Shown: positions 2,256 through 21,911 of the stretch, piece by piece
How positions within the stretch are numbered: position 1 is the first letter of the stretch
Layout of the letters: the number at the start of each line of letters is the position of its first letter
Source: Flavobacteriaceae bacterium
Lineage (GTDB): Bacteria; Bacteroidota; Bacteroidia; Flavobacteriales; Flavobacteriaceae
DNA length: 64,000 nucleotides
Assembly (NCBI GenBank): GCA_029934835.1
Contig: JAOZLL010000001.1
Location: 1 to 64,000, forward strand
Reading direction: 5' to 3'
Made by a program: the position numbers and the translations under genes
Notes under the pieces: model-generated
What the model saw: only the letters and a program-made list of their open reading frames with translations
Databases searched by the model: none
What the model was told of the DNA's origin: nothing

Positions 2256-2298
2256 ATTTTGGGTTTTCTTGTTACAAATTTACTTTAATAATTTGATT

Positions 2299-3045
2299 TT
2301 ATTGATTTTTAAATATTTTTTCTTTTAGAACTAAAAACACAAATTTTGAATTTCCTATTAAATAACGTTTCCACATTCGTTTTGGTTCTTGTAAAAAACG
2401 ATAAAACCACTCCAAACCAACCTCTTGCATCCATTTAGGAGCCCGTTTTACTTTTCCTGCAACTACATCAAAACTGCCTCCAACTCCCATAACAAAATTT
2501 ATATTCTTTAACTGTTTTTTATAATCATATAAAAAATTCTCTTTTGTAGGAGAGCTTATTGCTACAAATAATAGGTTTGCACCACTATTAGCAATATCAA
2601 TTGCTATATTTTTCTCTTCTTCTTTAGTAAAATATCCATTTCTGTAACCTGCAATAATTGAAGGGTTGTATTCTTTTGAATATACATCAACTACCTTTTT
2701 GACAATTTCCTCCTTTGCTCCAAAAAAGAAAATTTTATACTTTTTTTTATATGCTAATGCGACAAGATTTTGCATTAAATCAATACCCGCTACTCTTTCT
2801 TTCAATGGTTTTTTTAAAAATTTAGATGCCCAGACAATTGCTTGCCCATCAGCATTAATTATATCAGCTTCATTTACACTTTCTCGTAATTGTAAATCTG
2901 ATTGCATTGCCACCAACTTTCCTGCGTTAACAACGATATGATGTAGCTGTTTATTGTTATCTACACTATCCGTAATAACCTCTAAGGTTTCTTGCATATT
3001 CAAATTATCAATTTGCGTATTTAAAAAATGTACTCTTTCTATCAT
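2299..3045 (-). CDS. WecG/TagA/CpsF-family glycosyltransferase
   Basis: This 248-residue GT26-type protein probably adds the second sugar, often ManNAc or ManNAcA, to the lipid-linked first sugar at the cytoplasmic membrane face. The family core is present: NADGQAIVWASK, then RVAGIDLM, FFFGAKEE, GYFTKEEE and a C-terminal WFYRFLQEPKRMWKRYL. The length matches the family norm. The WecB/WecC pathway encoded at 18624-21030 makes a ManNAc-type donor plausible, although this is inference. A degenerate leader repeat lies just upstream at 3059-3087. Confidence 0.93.
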   Translation of the reverse strand: MIERVHFLNTQIDNLNMQETLEVITDSVDNNKQLHHIVVNAGKLVAMQSDLQLRESVNEADIINADGQAIVWASKFLKKPLKERVAGIDLMQNLVALAYKKKYKIFFFGAKEEIVKKVVDVYSKEYNPSIIAGYRNGYFTKEEEKNIAIDIANSGANLLFVAISSPTKENFLYDYKKQLKNINFVMGVGGSFDVVAGKVKRAPKWMQEVGLEWFYRFLQEPKRMWKRYLIGNSKFVFLVLKEKIFKNQ

Positions 3046-3058
3046 ATGTTTAAATTTT

Positions 3059-3087
3059 TACCGTTAAGGTACTAAAGTGCAAAAAGC
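3059..3087 (-). repeat. Degenerate CTTWGCGN leader repeat
   Basis: Read on the minus strand, this gives GCACTTTAGTACCTTAACGG followed by TAAAAATTT, ending about 13 bp before the start codon of the WecG/TagA-type gene. It is a diverged copy of the element also seen at 8884, 19830, 27669, 44541 and 60548. Confidence 0.5.
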
Positions 3088-3131
3088 TATTTATTATTCC
3101 TTTAAGTGTCAAAATTGATATGCTCGTTTTG

Positions 3132-4310
3132 TTATTCATCTTTAAGACGATAGGATAATGCATAAAACATCCATGATTGTGCCCATCGGATATAGGGAAT
3201 TTTAGTTGTGAAATATTTTTGTTTTTGATAATAAAAATAACCTTTTTGATCTTGCATATTTTGTATTGTCCAACCCAAAACCTTATCTACTAATTGTTTG
3301 TTCTGCTTATCTAAACCAAGCTTATAAAGTGTTACCACTACTTGTGCAGGTGCATGAATATCTATAGGGTATAGATGATTATTATAGTACTTGGATGCGC
3401 CGTTATCTAAAAAAAAGTTGTTTAGATAATAATTCATTCCAATTTCTATGTTTTTAGAATAAGATGTATCATCTGAATATTTTTGATATTCATAAATACA
3501 CTCTAGGTTATATCCTGTATGGAAACTGTCTATCCACTGATGAAAAGGCAAAGTTCCATAAGACCAAGATCCATCTTTTTGCTGGTGATCACAAACAAAT
3601 TGCACTGCTTTTTTAGCTTCTTTTAGTAGTGATTTATCTTTTGTAATATTATAAATTTGAGATAACAGCTTTGCCCCGAGCAATGAAGCATTAAATACTT
3701 GTGTGGAATCTTGCGGTGAATAAGAAAAAGAAAAATTTCTATTTTTATCGTAAGTTCTATTGAGATCTTTTAATACAAATTGTGCGCTTGAAATAACAAC
3801 ATCTAAAACAACTTGATCCTTTGTAATGGTATAAGCTCTCAACAAAGCTTCTACAATAAAACTTGTAGCTACTACTGTTGGTGTGTGTTTAGGCTGAAAA
3901 AAAGCACGAGCTTGCCAATCGAAATTATAGCCCCAACAGGCTCCCGAATATCCTGGAGATTGCAAATTTACTATTACTTTGCTTAAATGTTTTATTTTTT
4001 TAAGATATTCCTCTTTGGGTTGCTGCTCATAAAGATTGCAATAGCCTATTAAAAACAGCCCTAAACCCTTAGGATTATACTCTTTTTTAATACCGACAAT
4101 TTTTCTAAAATTAATGGGGTTTCTTTTAAATAGCTGTATCCAAGCTAATCTAAGAAAACGACTTTTTCTAAAAAATGGTATTGCATTAAAAAGTTTGCTA
4201 TTTAAACCATCATACGGATCGTAGCCTTTAAAACTTTCTTTTTCTACAAAATTTTTAAGGAGGTTAAAGCTATGTTGGATTTTATTCAAAAGCTGGCTTT
4301 CTTTCTGCAA
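3132..4310 (-). CDS. Alpha/alpha-toroid protein of unknown function in the polysaccharide locus
   Basis: This 392-residue protein has no signal peptide or membrane segment. Repeated helical hairpins with motifs such as GACWGYNFDWQARAFF, TPTVVATSFIVEALLRAY, DGSWSYGTLPFHQWIDS and HAPAQVVVTLYKL suggest an alpha/alpha barrel like that of prenyltransferases, terpene cyclases or glycoside hydrolases. I recall similar proteins carrying a delta-aminolevulinate dehydratase label, but I see no lysine or zinc motif of that enzyme. The start codon lies 29 bp inside the upstream polymerase gene, so translation is probably coupled. A role in modifying or cleaving the polysaccharide or its lipid intermediate is a guess from context. 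Confidence 0.8.
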   Translation of the reverse strand: MQKESQLLNKIQHSFNLLKNFVEKESFKGYDPYDGLNSKLFNAIPFFRKSRFLRLAWIQLFKRNPINFRKIVGIKKEYNPKGLGLFLIGYCNLYEQQPKEEYLKKIKHLSKVIVNLQSPGYSGACWGYNFDWQARAFFQPKHTPTVVATSFIVEALLRAYTITKDQVVLDVVISSAQFVLKDLNRTYDKNRNFSFSYSPQDSTQVFNASLLGAKLLSQIYNITKDKSLLKEAKKAVQFVCDHQQKDGSWSYGTLPFHQWIDSFHTGYNLECIYEYQKYSDDTSYSKNIEIGMNYYLNNFFLDNGASKYYNNHLYPIDIHAPAQVVVTLYKLGLDKQNKQLVDKVLGWTIQNMQDQKGYFYYQKQKYFTTKIPYIRWAQSWMFYALSYRLKDE

Positions 4311-5535
4311 TATTACAATAAAATATTAGTGTAAAAAATACGATCCAATATATAGTAGAACTGTGAGGTAATTCTAAAATAACATTAAAAAAAGACCATG
4401 CAGATAAACCGATAAATGCAGTGAACAGAAAAGCTTTTTTGGAATCTAAAAGGTTCTCTTTTTTCCACATTAAATGAATTATTGGGTAAATAAATAAGAG
4501 TATACTAATTCCGCCTAGATGATACATGATAGTAAGAAATGAATTGTGCGGTGGAGTAAGGTATTGTTCTTCCTTTAAAAAAGTAAGATTAAATCCGTTT
4601 CTTTTCATAATTTCATTCAGTTGCTGTCTTTGCTCTTCATCTATATACGTATTTCCAAATCCTTCCCCTTTAAGAAAATAATTATCTTCTGTTATTTGTT
4701 TTAAAGTATATCCCCAATAATTAAAGCGCCATTGAGAATTAACATCTTGAAAAGCAGGCATTTTGATATACAACATGATTAAAAGGCCAATAAATGATAT
4801 TGAAATTAAAATTTTAACACTCTTTCTAGAAGTAACCAATATCCATATAAATAAAACTACCAAATGACTTAAAAAAGCAGCATCATGACCCATGGTTAAA
4901 GACAAAAAAAAGGAGAACAGAAATACTATCCATTTTTTCCATCCTTTATAGAAAAAGAGGACATAGGAAGAAAAAATAATAAGACCCAGTATTGCTGCAG
5001 GTGAATAATAATACTTTAAAAAAATTGGATTATTATTTTTGATTACTAGTTGAAATACAACATATATAAACTGTACAACTAACGAAGCTTTGGCAAAATA
5101 AATGATGAAGTGGAATAAATACTCTAAAAAAACTCTATTGCTAGCTATTTTTTTAATAATTATATAACTTGTTATCATATAACCAAACAACATAAACTGT
5201 CTTATGGTTATATACAAAGCTTGAGTATCTTGGAATACATTATTATTCCATAAAGAAATTACTAAATAAAAGAGTGCCAATAATGAAAGTATCTCTATAC
5301 TAATAATTCGATTATTTCTATCAAATAAAATTGGAAGTGCTACTAAAACAGTAATGAAATTCACGAGGTCATGTAGGTAGATGTGTTGGATCAATTCAAA
5401 CTTGCTATATGCTCGACCTAAGAATAGTAACAAGATAGAATCCATAATTACAAATAGCAAAAAGAAACAAATCCACTTGTTATTTTTACAATTGGACAAT
5501 AAAATATCACTATTTATTGTATTAATACTTTTCAT
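4282..5535 (-). CDS. Wzy-like O-antigen/exopolysaccharide polymerase (copy 1)
   Basis: This 417-residue integral membrane protein has about ten hydrophobic segments and a large soluble loop around residues 240-320, as in Wzy polymerases and O-antigen ligases. The loop carries WRFNYWGYTLKQI, FLKGEGFGNTY and PPHNSFLTIMYHLGG. It is clearly related to the protein at 15921-17093: both start with a LGR-x-x-SK motif and end with a near-identical NVILELPHSS segment. It presumably joins lipid-linked repeat units in the periplasm. Its ATG touches the stop codon of the upstream gene without a gap, and the downstream gene starts inside it. Confidence 0.85.
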   Translation of the reverse strand: MKSINTINSDILLSNCKNNKWICFFLLFVIMDSILLLFLGRAYSKFELIQHIYLHDLVNFITVLVALPILFDRNNRIISIEILSLLALFYLVISLWNNNVFQDTQALYITIRQFMLFGYMITSYIIIKKIASNRVFLEYLFHFIIYFAKASLVVQFIYVVFQLVIKNNNPIFLKYYYSPAAILGLIIFSSYVLFFYKGWKKWIVFLFSFFLSLTMGHDAAFLSHLVVLFIWILVTSRKSVKILISISFIGLLIMLYIKMPAFQDVNSQWRFNYWGYTLKQITEDNYFLKGEGFGNTYIDEEQRQQLNEIMKRNGFNLTFLKEEQYLTPPHNSFLTIMYHLGGISILLFIYPIIHLMWKKENLLDSKKAFLFTAFIGLSAWSFFNVILELPHSSTIYWIVFFTLIFYCNIAERKPAFE

Positions 5536-6732
5536 TTATACCTTAAGTTGGTTAAATAATAGGGAATAAAAAAATGTAAAAAACAAGAGCCCTTGTTGTC
5601 TAACTAAAATATCATCTGTTAAGAAATAAATAGAAAGAATTGCTAAAAAAACTAAATAGAATTCTTTATTGATTACATAATTTAGTGGAATCAACAAAAC
5701 AAAAATAAAATACAAAAAACCAACAATTCCCAAGCTGGTCAGTATCAGTAAATACTGATTATGTGGCCCATATTTGTGTTCAGCAGCATATTTATAATCA
5801 TATAATTGATATTTTTTTAGCATTGCTGCTTTTACATTGGTATCTCCAACACCAAACCACGGATTTTCTTTTATTACTCGAAGCGCTGTCTCCCATTTTA
5901 CTAATCGTAAAGTCAATACATTTCGTTCCTCTTTTTTATCTGTAATAGTAAAGGCTGTATTTTTAAATTTTTCAATTTTACTCAACTTCAATGGATTAAA
6001 GATATATACCAAAACTAAGAGTCCTAAGATTAGAAATGATGGTTTTTTATAGTGTTTAAAACTAATTATAAAAAACAGAAAGAACATACAGATTAATCCT
6101 ATCATAGAATTTAATAAAAGTATGTAAGTAATTATTAGTGCTCCTAAAAATAGCTTAAGAATAAGTGAAAAATTCGCTCTTTTAACGTATAGAATATACA
6201 GCGTAAAATTTAAAAATAATGATGAAAATGTGGGATGTGAATTATCATAAATACGAACTAAACCGTAGGAAGTTACTTTGTGATATATACTCTCTGTAAT
6301 TAATATGCTCTTTTCTCCTGTACTATATATATCAATAAATCCATAAATAAGAGCAATTGTAATAAATAATAGGGATGAAACTGCAAAGGCATATAGAATT
6401 CTATCAAAAAGCTTTTTGTTTTCATTAATTCCGATAAAAAATACAGGAATGATTAACAATATAAAGTACTTCTCAATATCTTTAATATTAAAACCACTTT
6501 TAACTCTAAGTAGATAGCTAAAAACCAGAATAATAAAAAATAGAGGTAGCAAATAATCCTGAAACTTACTCAACTTTAATTTTTGCCAATCTTTTTTTAA
6601 AATCCATAATACCAAAAGTAAAGCGATAACAATCCCACTTTTATAATAAAATCCCGAGGGAATAATAAAGGCTAAAAAAATGAGTAAATAATTATAACTT
6701 TTTGTAATTATGTTTTTGTAGTTGTTTATCAA
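5536..6732 (-). CDS. O-antigen ligase/polymerase family protein
   Basis: This 398-residue polytopic membrane protein carries the Wzy_C/O-antigen ligase signature in a late periplasmic loop, with WETALRVIKENPWFGVGDTN followed by GPHNQYLLILTSLGI. It differs from the two other polymerase-like proteins in the locus and may be a ligase, or a polymerase for a different linkage. The only plausible start is a TTG directly after the TAA of the upstream gene (TAATTG), so expression probably depends on translational coupling. Distinguishing polymerase from ligase by sequence is unreliable. Confidence 0.85.
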   Translation of the reverse strand: MINNYKNIITKSYNYLLIFLAFIIPSGFYYKSGIVIALLLVLWILKKDWQKLKLSKFQDYLLPLFFIILVFSYLLRVKSGFNIKDIEKYFILLIIPVFFIGINENKKLFDRILYAFAVSSLLFITIALIYGFIDIYSTGEKSILITESIYHKVTSYGLVRIYDNSHPTFSSLFLNFTLYILYVKRANFSLILKLFLGALIITYILLLNSMIGLICMFFLFFIISFKHYKKPSFLILGLLVLVYIFNPLKLSKIEKFKNTAFTITDKKEERNVLTLRLVKWETALRVIKENPWFGVGDTNVKAAMLKKYQLYDYKYAAEHKYGPHNQYLLILTSLGIVGFLYFIFVLLIPLNYVINKEFYLVFLAILSIYFLTDDILVRQQGLLFFTFFYSLLFNQLKV

Positions 6733-8877
6733 TTATTCTAAATGCTGAGGTAGTCCCGTCTGTAAACTATCTATTATTTTAAAAGTTGTCAAGGTTGTAT
6801 CATAAATCGAATCAAAACTAATTGGTGTTTCCTTGCCTTCTTTAATACTTTCTAAAAAAGCAATAACTTCTTGTTTATGACCTTTACCATCTAACTTTAA
6901 TTTGTGCTCTTTATTGTCTTTGTGTATGCTAGCTGTTCTAAAATCATGGATTCGTCCAATTTTTCCACCTGAAAATATTTCTATCATCTCTTTGGGTAGT
7001 GATTTATCTCCATTAGCTAAATAGGTTAAATTGCCAACTGAACCATCATCAAAACTAATAATTACTGCAATATTATCATCTGATTTAATCTTTGTGTTGT
7101 TTGATTTTATGGATTCTGCATAAACTTTTACAGGCTTAGCGTCAGTGAAAAACTGCATTAAATCTATAAAATGACACATTTCACCAATAATTCTACCGCC
7201 ACCAAGGCTATCCATTTGGGTCCAATGATCTTTAGGAATAAAACCGGCATTTACACGAATGTTTACCACTTTTGGTTCGCCATTATTTGCAAATTCATTT
7301 TTAAGCGCTACTGAAACTGGTGCAAATCGTCTATTGAAACCAACCATTAATTGGTTGTTTCCTTTTTGATAGGCTTCTTTTACCGAGTCTAATTCCTCTT
7401 GATTCATAGCCACCGGCTTTTCGACAAAAACATGTTTATTCTGTTTTAATGCTTGAATCACGTACTCGGCATGTGAATTATGAGGTGTCGCAATAAAAAC
7501 AGTGTTAATCGCTTTTGACTCAAAGATATCATTTGCATTTGCTGAACTTATATTAAATCCAAATTTTTGAGCTACATTTTTTGAAGTAATTCCCTTAGAA
7601 GTAACTACTGTATCTAATGAAGCTCCAAAAGATTTTGCACTTGGTATTAAGTAACTCTGTGCAAAACTTCCTGCTCCAATAAAACCAATATTTATATCTT
7701 TTATGGGATTAGAAGTAATTTTGAATTTTGTATTGTCTTTATTATCATTTTCTGGATAATGAATTAGAATACCTATATGGGGTTCTTGAGTTTTACCTAA
7801 AACAATATCATAAGCTTTTTCTGCATCATCAATATTAAAAGTGTGTGTGATGAGTGATTTAATATTGATTTTACCTTGGGCAATTAATTCTAAAAAAGCC
7901 TCCATATTACGTTGTTCTGTCCAACGTACATAAGCATACGGATAATCAATTCCTTCTTCTTCATAACTTACATCATATCGTCCTGGTCCGTAGGAAGTTG
8001 ACATTTTTAGTTCTAACTCTTTTCGGTAAAAATCAGGATCACGTGGAATATCCATTTTTACAGCACCTACTACGATCACCTTTCCTTTTTTTCTAGTAAT
8101 GATTGCTGAAAGTTCTATAGGGTCATTACTTGGAGCGGCGGCAGTTATAATTACTTGATCAAAACCATGTCCGTTTGTAAAATTATCAATAGCCGTTAGT
8201 AAATTATCATCAGTACGTAGCATGGCGCTATCAGTATTATTATCAAGGGCTAATTTCACCAAGTTAGCAGCTAAATCAATTCCAAAAACTTTACAACCAT
8301 TTGCTTTTAATAATTGTGTTGTTAATTGTCCTAATAAACCCAAACCAATAACAGCAACTTTATCTCCCAATTTAGGATCGGCTTGTCTAACTCCTTGTAA
8401 TGCTATGGCTCCAAGTGTTGTAAAACTCGCTTCTTCAAAACTTACATTATCGGGTATTTTTGCCACTAGGTTTTGCGGGATACTCACTATTTCAGCATGT
8501 GATGCATAATCTTGTCCTGCACAAGCCACTCTGTCGCCAGGTTTAAATACATCATTGGTATCCATAGAAGCTTTTACCACTCCAGCTGTACTATATCCTA
8601 GCGCTTTTAGAGAATCTAATTTTGTTTTTACTTTATTTATAGTAGCTTTTAAACCTTCTTTTCTAACGTTTTGTAGTACTTGAGCTACCAAGTCTGGGCG
8701 TTGTTTTGCTTTACCGATTAGGCTTGCTTTTCCCACTTTAACGGTTCCTCTTTCGGTTCCTGCACTTATTAATGAATATTGGTTTTCAACTAATACCATT
8801 GCTTTACTTAATGCTGGTTTTGGTACTTCATCAATATATAAATCGCCTGTTTTGAAATTTTGGATTACTTGTTTCAT
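6733..8877 (-). CDS. Two-domain oxidoreductase: zinc-ADH-like plus Gfo/Idh/MocA
   Basis: This 714-residue cytoplasmic fusion protein has two dehydrogenase modules. Residues 1 to about 360 form a medium-chain alcohol-dehydrogenase-like domain, with FKPGDRVACAGQDYASHAEI and the nucleotide fold VIGLGLLGQL. Residues from about 390 form a Gfo/Idh/MocA dehydrogenase, with IGFIGAGSF, EKPVAMNQEEL and GFNRRFAPVS. Such fusions occur in polysaccharide loci and are thought to remodel nucleotide-sugar-linked intermediates, but the substrate is not known to me. It heads arm A and has its own promoter at 9018-9048. Its first nine codons are duplicated exactly at 13218-13245. Confidence 0.93.
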   Translation of the reverse strand: MKQVIQNFKTGDLYIDEVPKPALSKAMVLVENQYSLISAGTERGTVKVGKASLIGKAKQRPDLVAQVLQNVRKEGLKATINKVKTKLDSLKALGYSTAGVVKASMDTNDVFKPGDRVACAGQDYASHAEIVSIPQNLVAKIPDNVSFEEASFTTLGAIALQGVRQADPKLGDKVAVIGLGLLGQLTTQLLKANGCKVFGIDLAANLVKLALDNNTDSAMLRTDDNLLTAIDNFTNGHGFDQVIITAAAPSNDPIELSAIITRKKGKVIVVGAVKMDIPRDPDFYRKELELKMSTSYGPGRYDVSYEEEGIDYPYAYVRWTEQRNMEAFLELIAQGKINIKSLITHTFNIDDAEKAYDIVLGKTQEPHIGILIHYPENDNKDNTKFKITSNPIKDINIGFIGAGSFAQSYLIPSAKSFGASLDTVVTSKGITSKNVAQKFGFNISSANANDIFESKAINTVFIATPHNSHAEYVIQALKQNKHVFVEKPVAMNQEELDSVKEAYQKGNNQLMVGFNRRFAPVSVALKNEFANNGEPKVVNIRVNAGFIPKDHWTQMDSLGGGRIIGEMCHFIDLMQFFTDAKPVKVYAESIKSNNTKIKSDDNIAVIISFDDGSVGNLTYLANGDKSLPKEMIEIFSGGKIGRIHDFRTASIHKDNKEHKLKLDGKGHKQEVIAFLESIKEGKETPISFDSIYDTTLTTFKIIDSLQTGLPQHLE
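8850..8877 (-). repeat. 28-bp direct repeat, copy within the intact gene
   Basis: These bases encode the first nine codons of the two-domain oxidoreductase (MKQVIQNFK). They are identical, in the same orientation, to 13218-13245. The two copies bound about 4.4 kb that contains the transposase ruin, the glycosyltransferase stump and two plus-strand genes. Confidence 0.9.
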
Positions 8878-8883
8878 ATCTTT

Positions 8884-8920
8884 AAAATTTTACCGCTAAG
8901 ACGCGGCATCGCAAAGCTTT
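8884..8920 (-). repeat. CTTWGCGN leader repeat before the two-domain oxidoreductase
   Basis: On the minus strand the element reads GCTTTGCGATGCCGCGTCTT, then AGCGGTAAAATTTTAA, and stops 6 bp before ATG. The corresponding leader of the truncated duplicate at 13246-13280 lacks it, which suggests it is a separable insertion. Confidence 0.75.
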
Positions 8921-9017
8921 TTTAATCACTCTATTATGTGATAAGCCTTTTTTATCATGAATGTTTCCTGTGTTTTGAATATTATTTTTATGGATAAACA
9001 GCTTAAATGATAAGGTA

Positions 9018-9048
9018 CAAAGGTATACCTAATTCTTATGACGTACAA
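9018..9048 (-). promoter_or_regulatory. Bacteroidota-type promoter of arm A
   Basis: On the minus strand a -33 TTG (9046-9048) is followed after 20 bp by TACCTTTG (9018-9025), matching the TTG...TAnnTTTG promoter. Predicted transcription starts near 9011 and leaves a leader of about 134 nt before the two-domain oxidoreductase. Confidence 0.75.
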
Positions 9049-9077
9049 GATATATTTAGTTGGTTTATAAACTGGGA

Positions 9078-9112
9078 TTTAGTATTGGCTAAATCTCATT
9101 TTGAAGTACTAG
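9078..9112 (+). repeat. Outer left inverted repeat of the transposase-derived element
   Basis: About 35 bp pair imperfectly with 9856-9891 in inverted orientation. The shared core is GGCTAAATCTCATTTTGA. Together they delimit an element of about 814 bp. Confidence 0.75.
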
Positions 9113-9136
9113 GAATAATACAAGGTGTTTTATTTT

Positions 9137-9217
9137 TGGCTGAAAGCCATAGATACCTTAACTTATGGCAACGCCATAAAGGTATATGACTAATACAGGT
9201 TTTCGCCCTGAAAGGGC
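9137..9217 (+). repeat. Three REP-like palindromes, left side
   Basis: Three short palindromes occur in order: GGCTGAAAGCC (9138-9148), TTATGGCAACGCCATAA (9163-9179) and GCCCTGAAAGGGC (9205-9217). The same three types, reversed in order, occur on the other side of the broken transposase gene. This is the arrangement expected for REP sequences mobilised by a Y1 transposase. Confidence 0.85.
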
Positions 9218-9224
9218 ACTATAA

Positions 9225-9682
9225 TCAGCTCCATAAATAGCTTTCATCGTAATCAATATTGTATTCTTTAAAAAATTGTAAAACCTCTTCTTTATAAGTT
9301 TGTGTTTTATGATGTTCTTTTTGATTGGCAATATATATTGTAACAACTTTTTTCTTAGAATTACTAACAAAGAAACCAGCATATCTATCCATTTTGCCAT
9401 GCAAAGTTTTTATAGTGTAATCCTTTGCTTTTAATCCATTTGCTACTGGTTCGTTTTATGTTTTCAACATATTTTGATAAGGCAATTGTTCTAGGTAAAC
9501 TTGCAAGAATGTGAACGTGGTCAGAAACATCATTGATCATAAAAGGAATTCCTCCATTATTTTTTATTACACTTCCCATGTAAGCAAATAATTACTTTTC
9601 CACTTCTTGTTTTATAAAAGGAAATCGTTTTTTTTGTACTAAAAACTATATGTACATATAGTTGAGATAATGATTGCGCTAT
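9225..9682 (-). pseudogene. Broken REP-associated tyrosine transposase (IS200/IS605 TnpA family)
   Basis: By joining frames I can reconstruct a protein of about 150 residues. It begins AQSLSQLYVHIVFSTKK, continues RFPFIKQEVEK and NGGIPFMINDVSDHVHILAS, and ends GYAGFFVSNSKKK...YDESYLWS. DHVHIL is the HUH metal-binding motif of Y1 transposases. Four lesions are visible: the expected start codon is ATA (9680-9682); a run of eight A shifts the frame where seven would keep it (about 9628-9635); an in-frame TAA precedes LFAYMGSV; and a tandem duplication of GATA near 9387 shifts the frame after WQNG. The gene is therefore dead. It sits exactly between mirrored REP-like palindromes. Confidence 0.88.
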
Positions 9683-9695
9683 TTGATAGTATATT

Positions 9696-9777
9696 GCCCT
9701 TTCAGGGCGTTTATTTATTTGCTTAATTTTAACTTATGGCGTTGCCATAAGCTACTTTAGTAATGCCTTTCAGGCAT
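9696..9777 (-). repeat. Three REP-like palindromes, right side
   Basis: GCCCTTTCAGGGC (9696-9708), TTATGGCGTTGCCATAA (9734-9750) and ATGCCTTTCAGGCAT (9763-9777) mirror the three palindromes on the left. The loops (GAAA/TTTC and AAC/GTT) are complementary, so orientation is preserved relative to the transposase ruin. Confidence 0.85.
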
Positions 9778-9855
9778 TTTAGCAAAATAAAAAAAACTTA
9801 ATTATTGAAAAAATCTATAGAAAAGAATAAAAGAATTTAAAACTAAAAAAACTAT

Positions 9856-9891
9856 CTAGCACCTCAAAATGAGATTTAGCCTTAGTATTAG
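9856..9891 (-). repeat. Outer right inverted repeat of the transposase-derived element
   Basis: This is the imperfect inverted partner of 9078-9112, with the core TCAAAATGAGATTTAGCC. It marks the right edge of the mirrored element. Confidence 0.75.
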
Positions 9892-9908
9892 AAAATATTA
9901 TTTCTAAC

Positions 9909-10211
9909 TCAGGTCAAAAGTATTTTTTCTATAACACCTAAAAACATTTTCTCAAATGCTTTTTGTGTATAGAGTTCTTCATAACGTTTTCGTCCTTTAA
10001 CACTTAATTCAGATGCTTTATTAGGATTATTTATAAGATATTCCATCTCAGTTGCTAAAACTATATGGTCTTGCTTTGGCACAATAATCCCTGAATTATT
10101 ATCTAAAATCTCTAAAATTGCACCTTCATCTGTGGAAATAACAGGTAGTGAATATGACATTGCTTTCAATATTATTATATTATGACTTAAACTCTTTAAA
10201 TATATACTCAA
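9909..10211 (-). pseudogene. C-terminal stump of a GT4 glycosyltransferase
   Basis: About 100 codons match only the end of a group 1 glycosyltransferase: ILKAMSYSLPVISTDEGAI, then ILDNNSGIIVPKQD, LINNPNKASELSVKGRKRY and EELYTQKAFEKM. The catalytic E-x7-E region has lost its first glutamate (the expected EAMS reads KAMS). The N-terminal acceptor domain and most of the nucleotide-sugar domain are missing, and no continuing frame is visible upstream of 10211. The only start would be TTG. It is best read as the remnant of a former locus gene cut by rearrangement. Confidence 0.8.
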
Positions 10212-10600
10212 ATATTCTATTGATTGTGGATAATAATTCTCGACCTTTCAATAATTTTTAATAAAAGTACATTTTTTGAAACTAATTCTAAGATAAGAGT
10301 TGATTATAATGTGTATACTTGTTGATATGTATTAACAATAAATTATGTAAGCTATTATTATCAAACTCAGTTAAATTTATTGTTTTTAACCGAAAATAAG
10401 ATAAAATTTATTCAGATAAGGTCCTTATAATAAGGCAAATAACATTGCTAACTACATACAAGAAAAGCAACAAAACATAAATGAATTTTAGCTATTTTGT
10501 AGGAAATGAAAAAGATATAAATGAGTTCATCAAATATTCTGCTCTAAAATTAAATAGTCTGAAAATATAAAAGACATACTGTTATAAATAAATTATAATC
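10212..10600. other. AT-rich spacer without a gene
   Basis: I see no coding frame that continues the glycosyltransferase stump, and no convincing promoter or terminator. The sequence is very AT-rich. It separates the stump from the first plus-strand gene of the inserted block. Confidence 0.5.
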
Positions 10601-11296
10601 ATGAAAACAAAACTAATTACATTTCTACTCCTATTTTTATCAATAACGATTTTATATCCTCAAAATCATATTACAAATATTGGAGACGTTGGAATAGGGA
10701 CAACAAACCCTCAAGCAACCCTAGATATAATAAAAAACAACTCTAGCACAAACCCTCTATTAAACTTAAGTTATCCTTGGGATAAATTTGATTTAATCCA
10801 AATAAATAGAGGTGTCATTAGCCCTGAAAAAATGATTACTTTAGGAAATGCTGGTGGAACATTTAAAAGTGGGATTATTCAAATATTTCAAAAGGATATT
10901 TTAAATCCAAATATAAGACTATCTGGTTCTCCACTAGTTTCGACTTACTTTAATGCTGGAAATGTTGGTATTGGGACAATCAATCCTGGCAACTATAAAC
11001 TTGCTGTAGAAGGAATTATTGGTGCTAGGTCTATAGAAGTACATATGAATAGTTGGAGTGATTTTGTATTTAACCCCACTTATAAGTTAAGATCATTAAA
11101 TGAGCTAAGAGAATTTATAGAAACAAATGGTCATTTGCCTGAAATTCCAACTGAGCAAGAAGTAGTCGAGAATGGTGTTGATTTAGGGATAATGAATAAA
11201 AAATTACTACAAAAAATTGAAGAGTTAACTTTATATATTATTGAACTTAATGAACGTATCATTAAATTAGAAATTGAAGCTATGGATATAAAATAA
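10601..11296 (+). CDS. Secreted fibre-like protein with GIGTTNP motifs
   Basis: This 231-residue protein starts with a signal peptide (about residues 1-21). Two GxVGIGTxNP motifs (GDVGIGTTNP, GNVGIGTINP) are typical of Bacteroidota surface and tail-fibre-like proteins. The C-terminal part resembles the tail seen in that group: FVFNPTYKLRSLNELREFIE, then NGHLPEIPTEQEV and a final leucine-rich coiled coil (about 195-228), suggesting an oligomeric fibre. There is no T9SS C-terminal domain and no obvious S74 self-cleaving peptidase. It is 4 bp upstream of the beta-helix gene and probably co-transcribed with it, against the direction of the surrounding locus. Confidence 0.75.
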   Translation: MKTKLITFLLLFLSITILYPQNHITNIGDVGIGTTNPQATLDIIKNNSSTNPLLNLSYPWDKFDLIQINRGVISPEKMITLGNAGGTFKSGIIQIFQKDILNPNIRLSGSPLVSTYFNAGNVGIGTINPGNYKLAVEGIIGARSIEVHMNSWSDFVFNPTYKLRSLNELREFIETNGHLPEIPTEQEVVENGVDLGIMNKKLLQKIEELTLYIIELNERIIKLEIEAMDIK

Positions 11297-11300
11297 AAAC

Positions 11301-13172
11301 ATGAAAAAGCTTAGATCAATAATTCTAAAACTATTTATCATTTCCCTTTTCATCCAACATAACTCTTATTCGCAAATTTATGTTCAAGATGGTGATGATA
11401 TAATATCTATAATAAATAATATTACTCCTAATACTACCATATATGTTAGTGATGGAAACTATAACGGTGGAGTAATTACAAATAGTGGTAATATAACACT
11501 AATTGGAAGTGAGCAGTCTTTTTTTAATTCTAAAATATATATTAATGCCGATAACTTTAGAATAAAAGATTTCAAATGGCTTAATGTTAATGGTTTTTTA
11601 ATTGAAATAAGAGGAAAGAATAATTTAATTAGTAAATGTGAATTTTCAGGCTTTGGTAATATTTCTACATCAAAAGCCATTTGGATTAGAAATGAGATTA
11701 GTGTTACTGATAATCATTCAAATAATGTTATTGATAACTGTATTTTTAAAAATTGGGGGAAAACTTCTCAAACTGGATCTAATAGCTGTGTTAAGGTTGG
11801 TCAAACTAACCCATCACAAATTTTTCAAGGTACTATTATCAGGAATAATAAATTTATTGATGGACCACTACCAAATAATACTGAAAATCAAACTGCAATT
11901 CAGTTATTCTGTCCAACTTTAGTCGAGAATAATATAATAAAAAACTCTTATGATGCTATTGAAGTGAAAGGAAGTAATAATATCATTAGAAAAAATATAA
12001 TCTCTGAATGTCATGGAGCAGAAATATTAAGTAATCGATCTGGATCTAACAATATATTTGAAGGTAATATCATTCATGATAATGAAAATGAGGGTATTCA
12101 TATTTGGTCAGGAGAAAATAATATTTTCAGAAACAATATTGTATATAACTGTAAAATTATTGCTCGAATAAAAGGAGCAAAATATAATCTGGATGGCACC
12201 ATATCTGATACTGAAGCAAATAATGTATCTATTTATAATAATACCTTTTATAACAATGAGAGAGGTATTATCTGGGATCCAGGAAATGGTAACCCTTTGA
12301 ATCCTCCTCAAAATATTAAAATAGTTAATAATATCTTTTTTGGAATGGGTATCAACTCAGCAATAGAAAACACATATTTTAATCCTTCCGTTACAAAATG
12401 TTCAAACAACCTTTTTTATAATTTCTCCTCCAATTATATTCCTCAGGGGAATAGTATAATTACACAAAATCCTATGTTTAATACCAGTACAAATGATTTT
12501 CAAATTCAATCTATATCACCTTGTATTGATGCAGGACAATCTGTTCAACCTTTTGTAGAAAACGATATTAATGGAAATCATAGACCTTTAAATGGAGTAA
12601 GTAGTACTGGAATTAGAATCTTTGATATAGGTGCTCATGAATATTTTACAAATCCAAATGAATGTGAATTAATAAATTTGATTATTGAAAATCAAATAAT
12701 ATTTTCAGATAAAGAAGAATATAAGGACATATATATAAGAAATAGTTCTAATAATACTGATATTAGTTTAATTGCTTCAAACAAAATTATTATTAATCCT
12801 AATACAAATATTAATTTTAGATTAAAAGCTGAAATTGATGTACAATGTACATCTTATTTTATAAATTTAAGTTCAAATATGATTAAACCAAATCATAACA
12901 CGCTTGAAATTAATAATACAGTAAATAAAGGAAATAGAATAATAATTTCTCCAAATCCTAGTAACGGTTATTTTTCTATTACATATAGTGTTAAAAATCA
13001 GAATGGTAGAGTTCTAATATATGATAAAGAAAAGAAATTAATTTTTGAAACTGAAAATGTTTTGCTAAATACTATGAAAGTTAATATTAATGAACATCCA
13101 TCTGACATATATTATGTTAAAGTTATCACTAATAATGAAACCTTGGTTCAAAAAGTTTTAGTAAGAAATTAA
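11301..13172 (+). CDS. Secreted parallel beta-helix protein with T9SS sorting domain
   Basis: This 623-residue protein has a signal peptide (about 1-25). A long right-handed beta-helix (about 30-400) is rich in Asn ladders such as NNVIDNCIFKNWG, NTIIRKN-type turns and NNIFEGNIIHDNENEGIHIW. The region around ENDINGNHRPLNG and IGAHEYF is typical of secreted pectate-lyase-like or chondroitinase-B-like proteins. The last 75 residues form a type A T9SS sorting domain, beginning IIISPNPSNGYFSI and ending KVLVRN. It should be exported and anchored or released by the type IX system. Enzymatic activity is not assured, because I do not see the Lys/Arg pair of PL6 lyases in canonical context. Action on the locus's own polysaccharide is speculative. 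Confidence 0.85.
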   Translation: MKKLRSIILKLFIISLFIQHNSYSQIYVQDGDDIISIINNITPNTTIYVSDGNYNGGVITNSGNITLIGSEQSFFNSKIYINADNFRIKDFKWLNVNGFLIEIRGKNNLISKCEFSGFGNISTSKAIWIRNEISVTDNHSNNVIDNCIFKNWGKTSQTGSNSCVKVGQTNPSQIFQGTIIRNNKFIDGPLPNNTENQTAIQLFCPTLVENNIIKNSYDAIEVKGSNNIIRKNIISECHGAEILSNRSGSNNIFEGNIIHDNENEGIHIWSGENNIFRNNIVYNCKIIARIKGAKYNLDGTISDTEANNVSIYNNTFYNNERGIIWDPGNGNPLNPPQNIKIVNNIFFGMGINSAIENTYFNPSVTKCSNNLFYNFSSNYIPQGNSIITQNPMFNTSTNDFQIQSISPCIDAGQSVQPFVENDINGNHRPLNGVSSTGIRIFDIGAHEYFTNPNECELINLIIENQIIFSDKEEYKDIYIRNSSNNTDISLIASNKIIINPNTNINFRLKAEIDVQCTSYFINLSSNMIKPNHNTLEINNTVNKGNRIIISPNPSNGYFSITYSVKNQNGRVLIYDKEKKLIFETENVLLNTMKVNINEHPSDIYYVKVITNNETLVQKVLVRN

Positions 13173-13217
13173 GCTTATTAATCAATACTTTCAAGCTTCT
13201 TTCAAAACCTAAAGTTA

Positions 13218-13245
13218 TTTTGAAATTTTGGATTACTTGTTTCAT
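13218..13245 (-). pseudogene. 5' stump of a second two-domain oxidoreductase gene (28-bp direct repeat copy)
   Basis: An ATG (13243-13245) followed by eight more codons is identical to the start of the gene at 8877, then identity stops abruptly at 13217. The leader to the right keeps a TTAAATTTTA stretch, and a -7-like box lies at 13280-13287. This looks like a rearrangement scar in which arm B once ran directly into an oxidoreductase gene. Confidence 0.75.
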
Positions 13246-13279: not shown

Positions 13280-13287
13280 CAAAGGTA
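13280..13287 (-). promoter_or_regulatory. Orphan -7 box TACCTTTG
   Basis: On the minus strand TACCTTTG matches the -7 box of the active-looking promoter at 9018-9025, and the flanking TACAAAGGTAT is shared. No -33 TTG sits at the right distance. It would read into the nine-codon stump, so it appears to be a leftover promoter. Confidence 0.45.
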
Positions 13288-13380: not shown

Positions 13381-14814
13381 TTATAGTTCTGAAAAATACT
13401 CCTTTACTATTTCTTCTATTCGTAAAGTGCGTATATTTTCTTTAAACATTTTTGAAATATAAAAAGTAAGTAAAGAGGTGTAAATAAGATCTTTTGTACT
13501 ATAAAATGATGACTCTTTTTCTTCATACCAATTCATGACATGCTTATACATTTTTTCATGTCCTTTTATACGTTTAAGAAAAGTTCTTGTATGTGTGTAC
13601 CCATTTTTTTTTGTAGATGAAAACTTTAAATAATCATCAATAAATAGGGTTTTATCCTTAGTCCTTATTTCTATTTTTTCTTGGACTCCACGAATTACAT
13701 TTCCTTTATCTGAAACAGAAATATTTACCAACGAGCCTTTACTATATAAAATAGCAACAGAAATTGTTTCGTCTATAGAATCTGAACTAATTACATTTAA
13801 TTCTATTGGCATTTCATCAATCCAAAAAGTTGCTAAATCTATCCAATGTGTCAGATTTCCTGTTATTCTTGTACCTTGATTATCCCAAAAATACCAATGA
13901 TTATCATTTATAAGAATTTCTTTAACTGAAATATTTATTATTACCTGCTGTCCTTTTATCTTATCTTTTATCTCTTGGTTTACAGGAATATACCTTCGGT
14001 TATAGCCAATATCTATTTTTGCATTTTTTTTGTATAGTGCTATTAAATTTTTTAAATCTAATAAAGTAACTGTTGGTGGTTTTTCAATAAATATTTTTGT
14101 ATTTGGGTTAACTTCAAAAATCTCTTTAGCTATTCTAGTATGATCTGAATGATAGGTCGCTATTATTGCTAATGGATTTTCAACTCTTTTTAAGATAGAA
14201 TATGTTTCTTGTGGTACTAGAGCAAATTTATCGTAGGAATACCTGTTTTTATAATACTCCGCTAGTTGATAGTTATAATCTGTACAACATATTTTATGCT
14301 GTTTTTTAAGAAATGCTGCTATAAAAACACGAGAGTAATCTCCTAGACCATAGATAAACACCCCTTTTTTACTTGAATGATTTTCAGGTTGTTGTGGTAT
14401 TTCATCAAGATGAATATAATTCTTATAAATACGATTATTCGTATTGCTAAATTGATTGAAAATCTCTCTTTTAGATGTGAAAATATCTATTTTATTATCA
14501 AAAGAGTTTGATTCAAAAAATATATTCTCTATCACAAAACAATCTTGCTTTTGAGAGGTTTGGATACTAAAATTTAAAAAGGTTTTTTTATTATATTTTA
14601 CAGTTAGAACTGTTAAATAGTAAGATAACTTTAGTGCCTTATTTTTCTTTGATTTAATTTTACGAAATGTTTTAACAAAACCCTCGTATCGTATAAAAAA
14701 CCATAATTTTTTTATTTTATGTGATACTTCAGGTCTATCAGAAAATTTAAACTCTTTTTGTTTTACAACAAGGCTTTCAAATTTTAAATCTTTAAGACGG
14801 TGAATTCTATACAT
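13381..14814 (-). CDS. Gfo/Idh/MocA-type oxidoreductase with an unrecognised N-terminal domain
   Basis: This protein has 477 residues. The C-terminal two thirds are a sugar dehydrogenase module: the nucleotide fold VFIYGLGDYSRV (about 150), IFIEKPPTVTLLDLKNLI (about 240), GYNRRYIPVNQEI (about 272) and GNLTHWIDLATFW. The first 145 residues, beginning MYRIHRLKDLKF, match no family I know and are not the zinc-ADH module seen in the related protein at 6733-8877. It ends arm B, 2 bp after the glycosyltransferase gene. It probably acts on the same type of nucleotide-sugar or lipid-linked intermediate as the two-domain enzyme. Confidence 0.85.
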   Translation of the reverse strand: MYRIHRLKDLKFESLVVKQKEFKFSDRPEVSHKIKKLWFFIRYEGFVKTFRKIKSKKNKALKLSYYLTVLTVKYNKKTFLNFSIQTSQKQDCFVIENIFFESNSFDNKIDIFTSKREIFNQFSNTNNRIYKNYIHLDEIPQQPENHSSKKGVFIYGLGDYSRVFIAAFLKKQHKICCTDYNYQLAEYYKNRYSYDKFALVPQETYSILKRVENPLAIIATYHSDHTRIAKEIFEVNPNTKIFIEKPPTVTLLDLKNLIALYKKNAKIDIGYNRRYIPVNQEIKDKIKGQQVIINISVKEILINDNHWYFWDNQGTRITGNLTHWIDLATFWIDEMPIELNVISSDSIDETISVAILYSKGSLVNISVSDKGNVIRGVQEKIEIRTKDKTLFIDDYLKFSSTKKNGYTHTRTFLKRIKGHEKMYKHVMNWYEEKESSFYSTKDLIYTSLLTFYISKMFKENIRTLRIEEIVKEYFSEL

Positions 14815-14816
14815 AA

Positions 14817-15917
14817 CTATGATTTTAAAATAGCATTTATTTCAGTCATAAAATTAGAAATAAATATTTCTTCTGTGTATTTGTCAACATATTCATTATG
14901 GTTATTAAGAGACATTGCTCTTACTTTATCAAAGTTTTCTACACAATACTGCATTTTAGAAGCTAAATCGTTTGGATCTTTACTCTTAACAAGAAAACCA
15001 TTCACACCATCTTTTATGATATCTGAAATAGCACCATTATCTGTAGAAATTACCGTTAAGCCTGATTGGTACGCCTCTAAAATAGTTAAAGGAAAACACT
15101 CATTTTTATAGAATGTTGGTAATACAAAAATATCTGATTCAGCTAGTTTTTGATATTTTTCTTCGCCATAAGCAGGTCCATTTATAGTAACAAATTCTTC
15201 TAGATTATACTTTTTTACTAATTTTTTCAAGTACTCTACACTAATATCAGCAGAATTTCCAACAATTATTGCTTTAAAATCAGCTGTCTTTTCTTTTAGT
15301 AATTTTAATGCTTCGACAAAAATTAGAATACCTTTACTTTCTACCAGATTAGAAAGATAAATAAATTTTGTATTAGTACCTTTATCCTTACTTTTCTGCT
15401 TCTCTATCTTAGGAATTCCATTAGGAATTATCCTAGGTTTAGTAGGACTTACATTTTCAATATCTTTATATAAAACTTTTGCGAGCATGATAACCTCTGT
15501 GTTTTTAAAGACATAACTATATAATTTCTTTTGAAAACGGCTATTAGTTGTTTTTTCTAGAATCCCTTTTCCGTGTAAATGATAAAGAATTTTCTTATTA
15601 AATAATTTGAGAACAAAAACTAACACCAAGTCTTTATAAAAAGCAAAACCTAATGGTGATAGTGTAAAATATACTAAATCATAATTGTTATTAATTAGTT
15701 TTATTACAAGTTTGGTATAACTTTTTAATGCATTGAGGATTTTCCTAAAAGAAAAACCACCCATATCTTTCATTGAATTAGCTAATTGAATTTCGATAAT
15801 ATCAACATCTAATTCTGACTGAACAATCGGGTTATCAATGATTGTTTTGTTCATCAAAGAAGCACCATGAACTGGCGGAGGAAGTTGAACTAAAAATAAC
15901 ACTTTTTGCTTTTTCAT
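14817..15917 (-). CDS. GT4-family glycosyltransferase
   Basis: This 366-residue GT-B fold enzyme probably adds one sugar of the repeat unit at the cytoplasmic membrane face. The N-terminal PPPVHGASLMNKTIIDN is typical of the family. The donor domain has FIYLSNLVESKGI, FKAIIVGNSAD and the E-x7-E type region ECFPLTILEAYQSGLTVIST. It is closely packed: 2 bp before the oxidoreductase gene and 3 bp after the polymerase gene. The donor sugar is unknown. The stump at 9909-10211 belongs to the same broad family but is not a copy of this gene. Confidence 0.92.
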   Translation of the reverse strand: MKKQKVLFLVQLPPPVHGASLMNKTIIDNPIVQSELDVDIIEIQLANSMKDMGGFSFRKILNALKSYTKLVIKLINNNYDLVYFTLSPLGFAFYKDLVLVFVLKLFNKKILYHLHGKGILEKTTNSRFQKKLYSYVFKNTEVIMLAKVLYKDIENVSPTKPRIIPNGIPKIEKQKSKDKGTNTKFIYLSNLVESKGILIFVEALKLLKEKTADFKAIIVGNSADISVEYLKKLVKKYNLEEFVTINGPAYGEEKYQKLAESDIFVLPTFYKNECFPLTILEAYQSGLTVISTDNGAISDIIKDGVNGFLVKSKDPNDLASKMQYCVENFDKVRAMSLNNHNEYVDKYTEEIFISNFMTEINAILKS

Positions 15918-15920
15918 TTA

Positions 15921-17093
15921 TTAACTTTCACTTTTTTTGTAAGAATTATTTGTCATAAATGAATGATAGGTAGTAAAATAAATCACCCAAAATAACACAC
16001 TAGAATGTGGTAATTCTAAAATAACATTTAGCGCACTCCATACACTTACCCCAAAAAGGCTTAATATCATAAATAATTGGTCAGGTGTTAGACCTTTCTC
16101 AAATATTCCTTTTGCTGCTTTGTAATAAACAGGTAGTAATAATAGTGTAATAAATCCCATATAAGAGAAAAAGGTAACAAAAGAGTTATGGAATGCCTTG
16201 ACATAGCGTTCTCCTTTTCTATCAAAATGTGCTGAATCACCAAATTTTGTAGTCATCATTGACGCTTCTTCTAAGGTCAAATAAGCTTTGCCAAAACCAT
16301 TTCCCAATCCGAAATTATGAGTCCCATTATTCATACCTATTTTCCAATAATCTATTCTCCAATTGGCATTATTGTCGTTGTATTCTTTTGAAAGCTGTGA
16401 CACTATTAATAATCCAACAATGAATATGGACAAATAGAGTAGAGTTTGCCGTAAACCAATAATATATATGATATAAATTGCACCTACAAATAGTATACTT
16501 AATACTATTGAAGAATGCCCTAAAGCGGCAGAAACACCTAGAATAAATGCATAAATAACAAACTTTTCGAATATCGATTTTTTCCCTGATAGTATATAAG
16601 CTGCTAATACGGGAAAGAGCATTATTACAACAGGAGAATAATACTCATATAAAACACTTTTATCTGGTACGACAATATGAAATCTTATCAATAGTAAAAA
16701 AACTACTTGAACTGCAACACCAACTAGGGCTAATCTCTTTAGTAACCGAATAATCGTGGTAAAGCTGCCTTTTACATTTTCAGTTATAAAATATACCAAA
16801 GCTAAATATACCACTAGCATGTAATGACGTAATATAAATATTGGTTGCCTTCCTATCAAAAATGCAATCAATAAATAACCGACTGAAATTAGTATTAGAA
16901 GTAAAACATTCGGTTGACTTAGTTTTCTATTTAGCGTAGATAATGAAAACAAAAAGACTAGTAATAGTATAAAGTCATGCAAAAAAACAGGTCCTATAAG
17001 AACTGCTTTACTAAAATGTCTACCCAAAAACAACAAAAGATACAATAGCGTAAAAAGGCTATAGATTGTAATATTTTTTTTATTTAAAATCAT
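15921..17093 (-). CDS. Wzy-like exopolysaccharide polymerase (copy 2)
   Basis: This 390-residue polytopic membrane protein is related to the polymerase at 4282-5535. Shared landmarks are an LGRHFSK N-terminus followed by FLHD, an NWRIDYWKIGMNN loop with NFGLGNGFGKAY, AFHNSFVTFFSYMG, and the C-terminal SALNVILELPHSSVLFWVIYF. It probably polymerises lipid-linked repeats in the periplasm. A gap of 223 bp separates it from the flippase gene, the largest break inside arm B, so it may have an additional promoter. Two paralogous polymerases in one locus are unusual. Confidence 0.87.
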   Translation of the reverse strand: MILNKKNITIYSLFTLLYLLLFLGRHFSKAVLIGPVFLHDFILLLVFLFSLSTLNRKLSQPNVLLLILISVGYLLIAFLIGRQPIFILRHYMLVVYLALVYFITENVKGSFTTIIRLLKRLALVGVAVQVVFLLLIRFHIVVPDKSVLYEYYSPVVIMLFPVLAAYILSGKKSIFEKFVIYAFILGVSAALGHSSIVLSILFVGAIYIIYIIGLRQTLLYLSIFIVGLLIVSQLSKEYNDNNANWRIDYWKIGMNNGTHNFGLGNGFGKAYLTLEEASMMTTKFGDSAHFDRKGERYVKAFHNSFVTFFSYMGFITLLLLPVYYKAAKGIFEKGLTPDQLFMILSLFGVSVWSALNVILELPHSSVLFWVIYFTTYHSFMTNNSYKKSES

Positions 17094-17316
17094 TTATTGC
17101 TGTCTAGATTTTCTTTATGTTTTATTTAGAAATCTATATCGTTTTTAGTATTAAAATGTCTTCTAACCTATTTTTAATGTAAGCTTTAAACTTAAAAAAA
17201 ATTTACATAAAAAACTCCCATTTTACAAAAGAACAAAAATATTCAATAATAAAACGTTTCCCTATAAAAAGTATTCCCAATACTGATATATTATTTCTCG
17301 TGTCATTTGAAATATA
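17094..17316. other. Intergenic gap within arm B
   Basis: This 223-bp AT-rich stretch contains a minus-strand TATTTTTG (17234-17241) that fits the -7 box of Bacteroidota promoters. No -33 element is visible at the expected distance. It could give polymerase copy 2 and the following genes separate expression. Confidence 0.35.
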
Positions 17317-18627
17317 CTAAACGGTTTTCATGTATTTTTTAAGATACAATAGAATTGCCAAACCAAAAATTATCATAGAACTGAACAAATTAAAAAGATT
17401 CTGTTCAAAATACATTTTAAATGGAACAAACAGAAGGGACATCAATAATATGGGATAGAAAATACTTAATCTTTTATAAATAAATCCTTTTTCATTGATT
17501 GCTATGATACTTAATATTGATAATACTGTTTCACCAATTAGTATAGATAATGCAATAAGATAAGGATGGTTTCCAAATACAAACCAAAGAATAATACCAG
17601 ATACTATTGCAATTAAAGCAGCAATTAATGGATTGGTACTATATTGCTTATCTCTTTTAAGTAATAAAAGTTTTGTCTCAGAACTAGATGATATTGATGA
17701 AACAAAACCAGCAATACCCAATAATAAAAAAGTAAGTGAATAACTACTATATCTATCATCAAAAAATAAAGAAATAACAACTTGATTGAAGAATAGTAAT
17801 GAAATTAAAAAAACAATTCCTATTATCATCGCAAATAAATCTACCTTCATAGCAATGTCATCACTAATCAATTCTTTAAAAAATGCTTGTACAATTATTC
17901 TCCTTACTCCTTTGTAGATCATATACAATTTGAGTGCTAAATAAGAAACTGCTATGGCTTCATCATTATAAAACAGAGACATTACATTTACGATACCTAT
18001 ACCTATAAAGAAAAATGAAAAACTGGCTAATCCTATTCTTATGTTGGCTAAATATTTTTTAATTAATTTGATTTTAGGTGTCACAAAATAACGTACCTCA
18101 AGAATTTTTGATACCAGTATACCTGTAAACAAATAGGCAACAACAAGACTTAAGCTATATAAAAGTACGATATGCTCTATAAAATAAAATGAACTAATAA
18201 CCAAAGTTACTGCTGGAATGATAATCCTTAAAAGTGCAATTTTTGCACCCATCACAGGTTTTCCCAATCCATAAAGTGCATAGTCTGCATTCAACGCAAA
18301 TACAGGAGCCATAAAAAAGAGGAAATTTTTAGTAAACAAAAATCCAAAAAACCCAAAGAACATAAGGAAAAGTGAAAGTGTAAACCTAGCAGATTGCGTA
18401 GAGTAATATTCTTCTTTCCAATCGTTTAGTAATGCTAATTGTCTTGTAGTAGATAATTGTAATCCAAAAGCGATTATTGATATTACCATCAATGAAAATG
18501 AATCGATTTCACCAATAAATGCAATTGTTTTATTGGCTACATTTTTTGCAATAAACTTTAAAGACATAATTGTACCTATGTGTCCTATCCCAGTTAATAT
18601 ACCTATTACAAAAAGCCTTTTTATCAT
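17317..18627 (-). CDS. Wzx-like polysaccharide flippase
   Basis: This 436-residue integral membrane protein has about twelve hydrophobic segments and begins MIKRLFVIGILTGIG. Its size and hydrophobic pattern match MATE/MOP-superfamily oligosaccharide flippases, and LNADYALYGLGKPVMGAKIA is typical of the early helices. It presumably moves the lipid-linked repeat unit across the inner membrane, between the glycosyltransferases and the Wzy-type polymerases. Its ATG overlaps the stop codon of the wecC-like gene by 4 bp. Family assignment rests on topology and context more than on sharp motifs. Confidence 0.8.
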   Translation of the reverse strand: MIKRLFVIGILTGIGHIGTIMSLKFIAKNVANKTIAFIGEIDSFSLMVISIIAFGLQLSTTRQLALLNDWKEEYYSTQSARFTLSLFLMFFGFFGFLFTKNFLFFMAPVFALNADYALYGLGKPVMGAKIALLRIIIPAVTLVISSFYFIEHIVLLYSLSLVVAYLFTGILVSKILEVRYFVTPKIKLIKKYLANIRIGLASFSFFFIGIGIVNVMSLFYNDEAIAVSYLALKLYMIYKGVRRIIVQAFFKELISDDIAMKVDLFAMIIGIVFLISLLFFNQVVISLFFDDRYSSYSLTFLLLGIAGFVSSISSSSETKLLLLKRDKQYSTNPLIAALIAIVSGIILWFVFGNHPYLIALSILIGETVLSILSIIAINEKGFIYKRLSIFYPILLMSLLFVPFKMYFEQNLFNLFSSMIIFGLAILLYLKKYMKTV

Positions 18628-19823: not shown

Positions 19824-19829
19824 CTGGAT

Positions 19830-19866
19830 AAATTTTACCGCAAAGGCACAAAGACGCCAAGCTTTT
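19830..19866 (-). repeat. CTTTGCGN leader repeat before wecC
   Basis: On the minus strand this reads GGCGTCTTTGTGCCTTTGCG followed by GTAAAATTTATCCAG and the ATG. The period is about 8 bp. It fills much of the 88-bp gap between wecB and wecC. Confidence 0.75.
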
Positions 19867-19911
19867 TTTTAATTATTCTCTGATATAATAAATTTAGATC
19901 TATTTGTTTCA

Positions 19912-21030: not shown

Positions 21031-21038
21031 GTTGTCTT

Positions 21039-21896: not shown

Positions 21897-21911
21897 CCTA
21901 AGATTCCAAAT

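Follow-up and report, generated by a model that had tools for sequence, protein, structure and literature searches.

In a surface-polysaccharide locus of a Flavobacteriaceae bacterium, the first 28 bp of a gene for a two-domain oxidoreductase (BIDOM in the following) are found twice, and the pair is probably, in our judgement, the scar of a past and untidy replacement of the central module of the locus, in which incoming and resident DNA were joined illegitimately at codon 9/10 of BIDOM. The window, i.e. the whole stretch of DNA that was analysed, takes up the initial 64 kb of a 107-kb contig that belongs to a draft genome of 2.47 Mb (179 contigs, 88% complete). The Wzx/Wzy-type locus spans positions 861-22964 on the minus strand. 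Its arm B encodes, in the order of transcription, Wzz-like and RmlD-like proteins, WecB, WecC, a flippase, a Wzy-like protein, a GT4 glycosyltransferase and the oxidoreductase GFO477; after the block between the repeat copies, arm A continues with BIDOM, Wzy_C, a second Wzy-like protein, a GH88/GH127-like protein, WecG and a sugar transferase. The features are as follows.

861-6732, minus strand: remainder of arm A (O-antigen ligase/Wzy_C, Wzy-like protein, GH88/GH127-like protein of 392 aa, WecG/TagA/CpsF, undecaprenyl-phosphate sugar transferase)
6733-8877, minus strand: BIDOM, 714 aa, intact, with a zinc-alcohol-dehydrogenase-like N-terminal half and a GFO/IDH/MocA C-terminal half (PF00107, PF01408)
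8850-8877, minus strand: copy A of the 28-bp repeat, codons 1-9 of the intact BIDOM (exact repeat, orthologue alignment)
8878-9086, minus strand: leader of copy A, with the dispersed 5' element CTTAGCGGTAAAATTTTAAAGAT just before the ATG and a promoter-like TTG-N-TACCTTTG (about 9018-9048)
9087-9881, no strand assigned: 795-bp element with 26-bp terminal inverted repeats and an 8-bp target duplication, TTAGTATT, at 9079-9086 and 9882-9889
9909-10211, minus strand: C-terminal stump of a GT4 glycosyltransferase, 100 aa (PF00534)
10601-11296, plus strand: secreted fibre-like protein, 231 aa, with GIGTTNPQ and GIGTINPG motifs (open reading frame)
11301-13172, plus strand: right-handed beta-helix protein, 623 aa, with a type IX secretion (T9SS) tail (PF13229, PF18962, TIGR04183)
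13217/13218, no strand assigned: junction at which the BIDOM stub meets the sequence behind the beta-helix gene (sequence comparison)
13218-13245, minus strand: copy B of the 28-bp repeat, a BIDOM start reduced to a stub and linked to arm B (exact repeat)
13280-13287, minus strand: −7-like box TACCTTTG upstream of copy B, with no TTG at −33
13381-14814, minus strand: GFO477, a GFO/IDH/MocA oxidoreductase of 477 aa and the last complete gene of arm B (PF01408)
14817-22964, minus strand: remainder of arm B (GT4 glycosyltransferase, Wzy-like protein, flippase, UDP-ManNAc dehydrogenase WecC, WecB, RmlD-like protein, Wzz-like protein)

The original prediction of an exact, same-orientation repeat of the first nine codons was borne out, at the positions given, by a repeat search of the 64-kb window (8850-8877 and 13218-13245). 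On the minus strand the repeated sequence is ATGAAACAAGTAATCCAAAATTTCAAAA, which corresponds to codons 1-9 of BIDOM (MKQVIQNFK) plus one base, and in both copies the first identical base is the A of the BIDOM ATG. Only these two sites for the 28-mer are present in the source genome, even when three mismatches are allowed. The other exact direct repeats of at least 20 bp in the window are a 7-bp tandem array and one 20-mer, so that the 28-bp pair is the sole dispersed exact direct repeat longer than 20 bp. The array, seven copies of TTTAGTC, occupies the very start of the contig (1-49), where it possibly marks an assembly break at a simple repeat; the 20-mer is shared, at 4367 and 16009, by the two Wzy-like polymerase genes (4282-5535 and 15921-17093).

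The abrupt stop of the second copy, also noticed earlier, was confirmed. Copy B breaks off at codon 9/10, the reading frame beyond it ends at approximately residue 38, and sequence comparison across the 13217/13218 join revealed no related sequence beyond that codon. The MKQVIQNFK peptide is kept at the start of three out of three aligned orthologues, with minor changes in a wider set. At the nucleotide level the two window copies have no mismatch in their first 28 nt, whereas 63 related loci differ from the window at 2-7 positions, which indicates that the stub derives from a very close allele. Upstream of the ATG, a local alignment of the 150-bp regions preceding the two copies scored 15 versus a mean of 14.6 for shuffled sequences; similarity at the shuffled level, followed by identity from the ATG onwards, points to a single coding start preceded by two independent 5' regions.

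The related box upstream of the second copy had been taken for an orphan promoter. The box is indeed present at 13280-13287, but the window has roughly one TAnnTTTG per kb on each strand and the −33 TTG is lacking at this site, so that the case for a promoter at copy B is weak; at copy A, by comparison, the upstream box (9018-9025) is accompanied by a TTG at −33. The leader that immediately precedes copy A has a wider distribution, with a sequence close to CTTTGCGnCTTTGCGTCTTAGCGGTAAAATTTTAAACAC found in the window at 8878-8923 and 19824-19868 and at approximately 20 further sites in the source genome, where it precedes the ATGAA of otherwise unrelated genes (leuS-like, pheT-like, exonuclease III-like, WecC and BIDOM copy A). 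The pattern CTTNGCGGTAAA-N2-12-ATGAA was counted 22 times in this genome versus 0 for the reversed pattern, and elsewhere six times in congener G001, three times in G005 and 0-1 times in four other congeners. A regulatory role in 5' regions is possible, as is a mobile repeat that preferentially targets the starts of genes; a literature search yielded no description of it.

Open reading frames and domain matches confirmed that a dead transposase, a glycosyltransferase stump and two genes on the opposite strand lie between the copies. The stump is homologous to glycosyltransferases at the equivalent position of related loci, with best matches of 35-41% to those of L110, L111, L153, L106 and L107. 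The 231-aa fibre-like protein has no family match, and a 42% local match to genes of the BIDOM locus L132, in which a distant relative of the beta-helix protein (28-31%) lies directly upstream of BIDOM. By open reading frame and domain searches, no integrase and no intact transposase or recombinase was found in the block. Its GC content (about 0.21-0.30) shows no contrast with that of the flanking genes and spacers (0.20-0.34). Rfam and tRNA scans of the window gave no hits; with no tRNA there is no integration site of the tRNA type.

The only mobile element recognizable in the block, at 9087-9881, has matching inverted ends and is flanked by an 8-bp target duplication. It contains the disrupted Y1 transposase, of which a 64-aa piece (9385-9579) matches PF01797. 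When block and flanks were searched against the genus, the family and the order, no close copy of the block was found, and of its contents the inverted-repeat element alone recurs, in G001, at 96-97% identity. Three complete copies are available (in the window, in G001 and on the source genome's own contig C37), each with a perfect 8-bp duplication (TTAGTATT, ACAAATGT and CATTTATT). Since each has a duplication of its own, the element inserted separately, and it does not explain the 28-bp repeat. Sites recorded for the element, next to 9087-9881, are L098 (5338-6439) and L244. Its assignment as an IS200/IS605 (Y1) insertion sequence was considered and rejected on the basis of the broken transposase frame and the flanking 8-bp duplications; target duplications are not known to result from Y1 activity. 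The REP-type Y1 gene may instead be a passenger of the inverted-repeat element.

The position of the break acquires meaning from the comparison with related loci. In a genome scan, BIDOM relatives turned up in 80 loci, mostly from Bacteroidota, and the nearest among those with named organisms are from Flavobacteriaceae; viral contigs gave no BIDOM relative. The conserved right half of the locus, arm A, begins with BIDOM, whose orthologues in Bacteroidota loci match at 59-78%. By grouping the neighbouring genes at 40% identity, the nearest upstream neighbours fell into 37 families in 61 loci (the largest with 7 members) and the nearest downstream ones into 21 families in 64 loci (the largest with 29), so that the same genes recur across loci behind BIDOM, with wide variation before it. 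Gene order thus supports the view that, across Bacteroidota, variable modules meet conserved ones at the BIDOM start. A second BIDOM start or stub was present in none of the 63 loci in which the gene start was available (528 kb of upstream DNA). In six loci a homologue of GFO477 (49-55%) is found just before BIDOM or in its vicinity: 14 bp upstream of it in Arenibacter (L114), and no more than about 2.4 kb away in L101, L102, L108, L111 and L115. Since GFO477 adjoins BIDOM in relatives, the block-free order is an ordinary one, and copy B is best read as the BIDOM stub of arm B; the idea that removal of the block would place arm B directly before arm A agrees with the Arenibacter arrangement. 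Opposite-strand or unrelated genes just before BIDOM are likewise not unique to the window, being found in Aequorivita (a methyltransferase in L101, L102 and L115) and in L124 (a secreted protein with a T9SS-like tail). Closer to the source organism, orthologues of BIDOM and GFO477 were absent from the six congeners searched, and among 397 genomes of the family GFO477 (E <= 1e-30) and the beta-helix protein (E <= 1e-25) were detected in the source genome only.

By taking these observations into account, the following course of events can be proposed. The incoming DNA would have consisted of arm B, with its polymerase, glycosyltransferase and GFO477 genes, and of 28 bp from the start of its own BIDOM, and would have been joined to the resident locus. 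On the far side, pairing with conserved genes such as wecB/wecC may have taken place. The join at the BIDOM end would have been illegitimate and immediately behind the resident beta-helix gene, so that older resident remnants (the genes for secreted proteins, the glycosyltransferase stump and the BIDOM leader) stayed between the stub and the intact BIDOM. The inverted-repeat element would have entered this remnant region independently. We infer the order of events, the direction of transfer and the mechanism of joining; the junction carries no independent signature of an illegitimate join. Nevertheless, an untidy replacement explains at once the unlike 5' regions, the abrupt end of the stub, the old glycosyltransferase remnant and the intact BIDOM, and the contents of the block fit with module exchange, its glycosyltransferase remnant being of the same locus family. 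As to the source of DNA, a dprA homologue is present in the genome and Ku was not detected in it, which at most leaves room for DNA uptake. It is also conceivable, if rather doubtful, that the BIDOM start is a recurrent joint of exchange, at which the highly conserved first codons and the conserved genes behind them anchor swaps of the central module from strain to strain, one of which would here be half-finished. The original proposal of a module-swapping site holds in so far as the BIDOM start bounds variable and conserved modules; a dedicated swapping site is not favoured by a single repeat pair, a block devoid of recombinase genes and the lack of stubs in the related loci.

Duplication and deletion within the lineage would give an identical picture, with two complete BIDOM genes in tandem locus alleles, one of which was then lost except for its first 28 bp. 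The identical coding start under two different 5' regions would be consistent with such a sequence of events, as would the glycosyltransferase stump, which attests to the presence, now or formerly, of parts of a second allele; with no second BIDOM start in any of the 63 related loci, it is nevertheless considered unlikely. Insertion of the whole 4.34-kb block as a unit at codon 9/10, with a 28-bp target duplication that happened to restore the gene, is less likely still. Formally the block is an insert between direct repeats, and its removal gives an order known in relatives, but the lack of an intact recombinase and a repeat that starts exactly at the ATG, which a random target duplication is not expected to do, make a mobile unit improbable. 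Moreover, the sole recognizable mobile element is delimited by ends and an 8-bp duplication of its own, a leader found before many genes of the source genome would be an unexpected end for an insert, and no matching inverted terminal repeats were found at the block ends, 8878 and 13217.

A deletion-prone or phase-variable segment that switches the surface coat, as had been suggested, would require recombination between the copies, by which a population would alternate between two states of the locus. The in-frame direct repeats, and the fact that without the block arm B would be followed at once by an intact BIDOM, in the order seen in relatives, speak for it. However, recombination between 28-bp repeats 4.4 kb apart would be expected only rarely, and the locus has neither an invertase or recombinase nor inverted or multiple sites, but one direct pair, with arms 4.34 kb apart, no further copies in the genome and no recurrence in the 63 loci. 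BIDOM is, furthermore, intact in the present state, so that neither its loss nor its gain is expected from switching. We regard a switch as very improbable, and even more so an assembly artefact, in which alleles of two strains would have been joined at a 28-bp overlap. The draft state of the genome leaves room for such an error; on the other hand, assemblers normally require overlaps longer than 28 bp, and the junction between the stub and the beta-helix side lies at the end of the repeat rather than across a shared overlap.

In Wzx/Wzy polysaccharide loci a variable central region, with polymerase, flippase and glycosyltransferase genes, lies between conserved genes. The present locus conforms to this pattern, in that these genes vary between shared flanks, but it differs from typical examples in that the constant side opens with a two-domain oxidoreductase and in that the join is untidy. 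In the capsule loci of Bacteroides, phase variation is based on invertible promoters and requires inverted repeats and an invertase; both cases concern surface polysaccharides of Bacteroidota, but here the repeats are direct and there is no recombinase. A closer parallel is offered by the T6SS loci of Vibrio cholerae, for which displacement of modules with retention of remnants has been proposed to occur via homology-facilitated illegitimate recombination (PMC5361080), which was originally described in bacteria with natural competence (PMC3240628). As in V. cholerae (PMC5361080), a conserved stretch lies beside a variable module, the displaced module leaves orphan remnants and there is no integrase; a remnant of the displaced allele, as looked for in scars of this type, is retained in the glycosyltransferase stump of the same locus family. 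In contrast, whole immunity genes stay behind in V. cholerae, whereas a 28-bp gene start and a glycosyltransferase stump are left here, and most intermediate forms are known there from other strains, whereas an intermediate strain is not known for the present locus. A literature search returned no description of polysaccharide-locus remnants in Bacteroidota.

Thus, the locus is most likely a further instance of an already known type of recombination scar and a product of ordinary genome evolution, in which one step in the rebuilding of the surface-polysaccharide loci of Bacteroidota has remained visible. The BIDOM start would name the gene boundary between their variable and constant parts, and as such it could be used for locus typing and for finding more swap scars.
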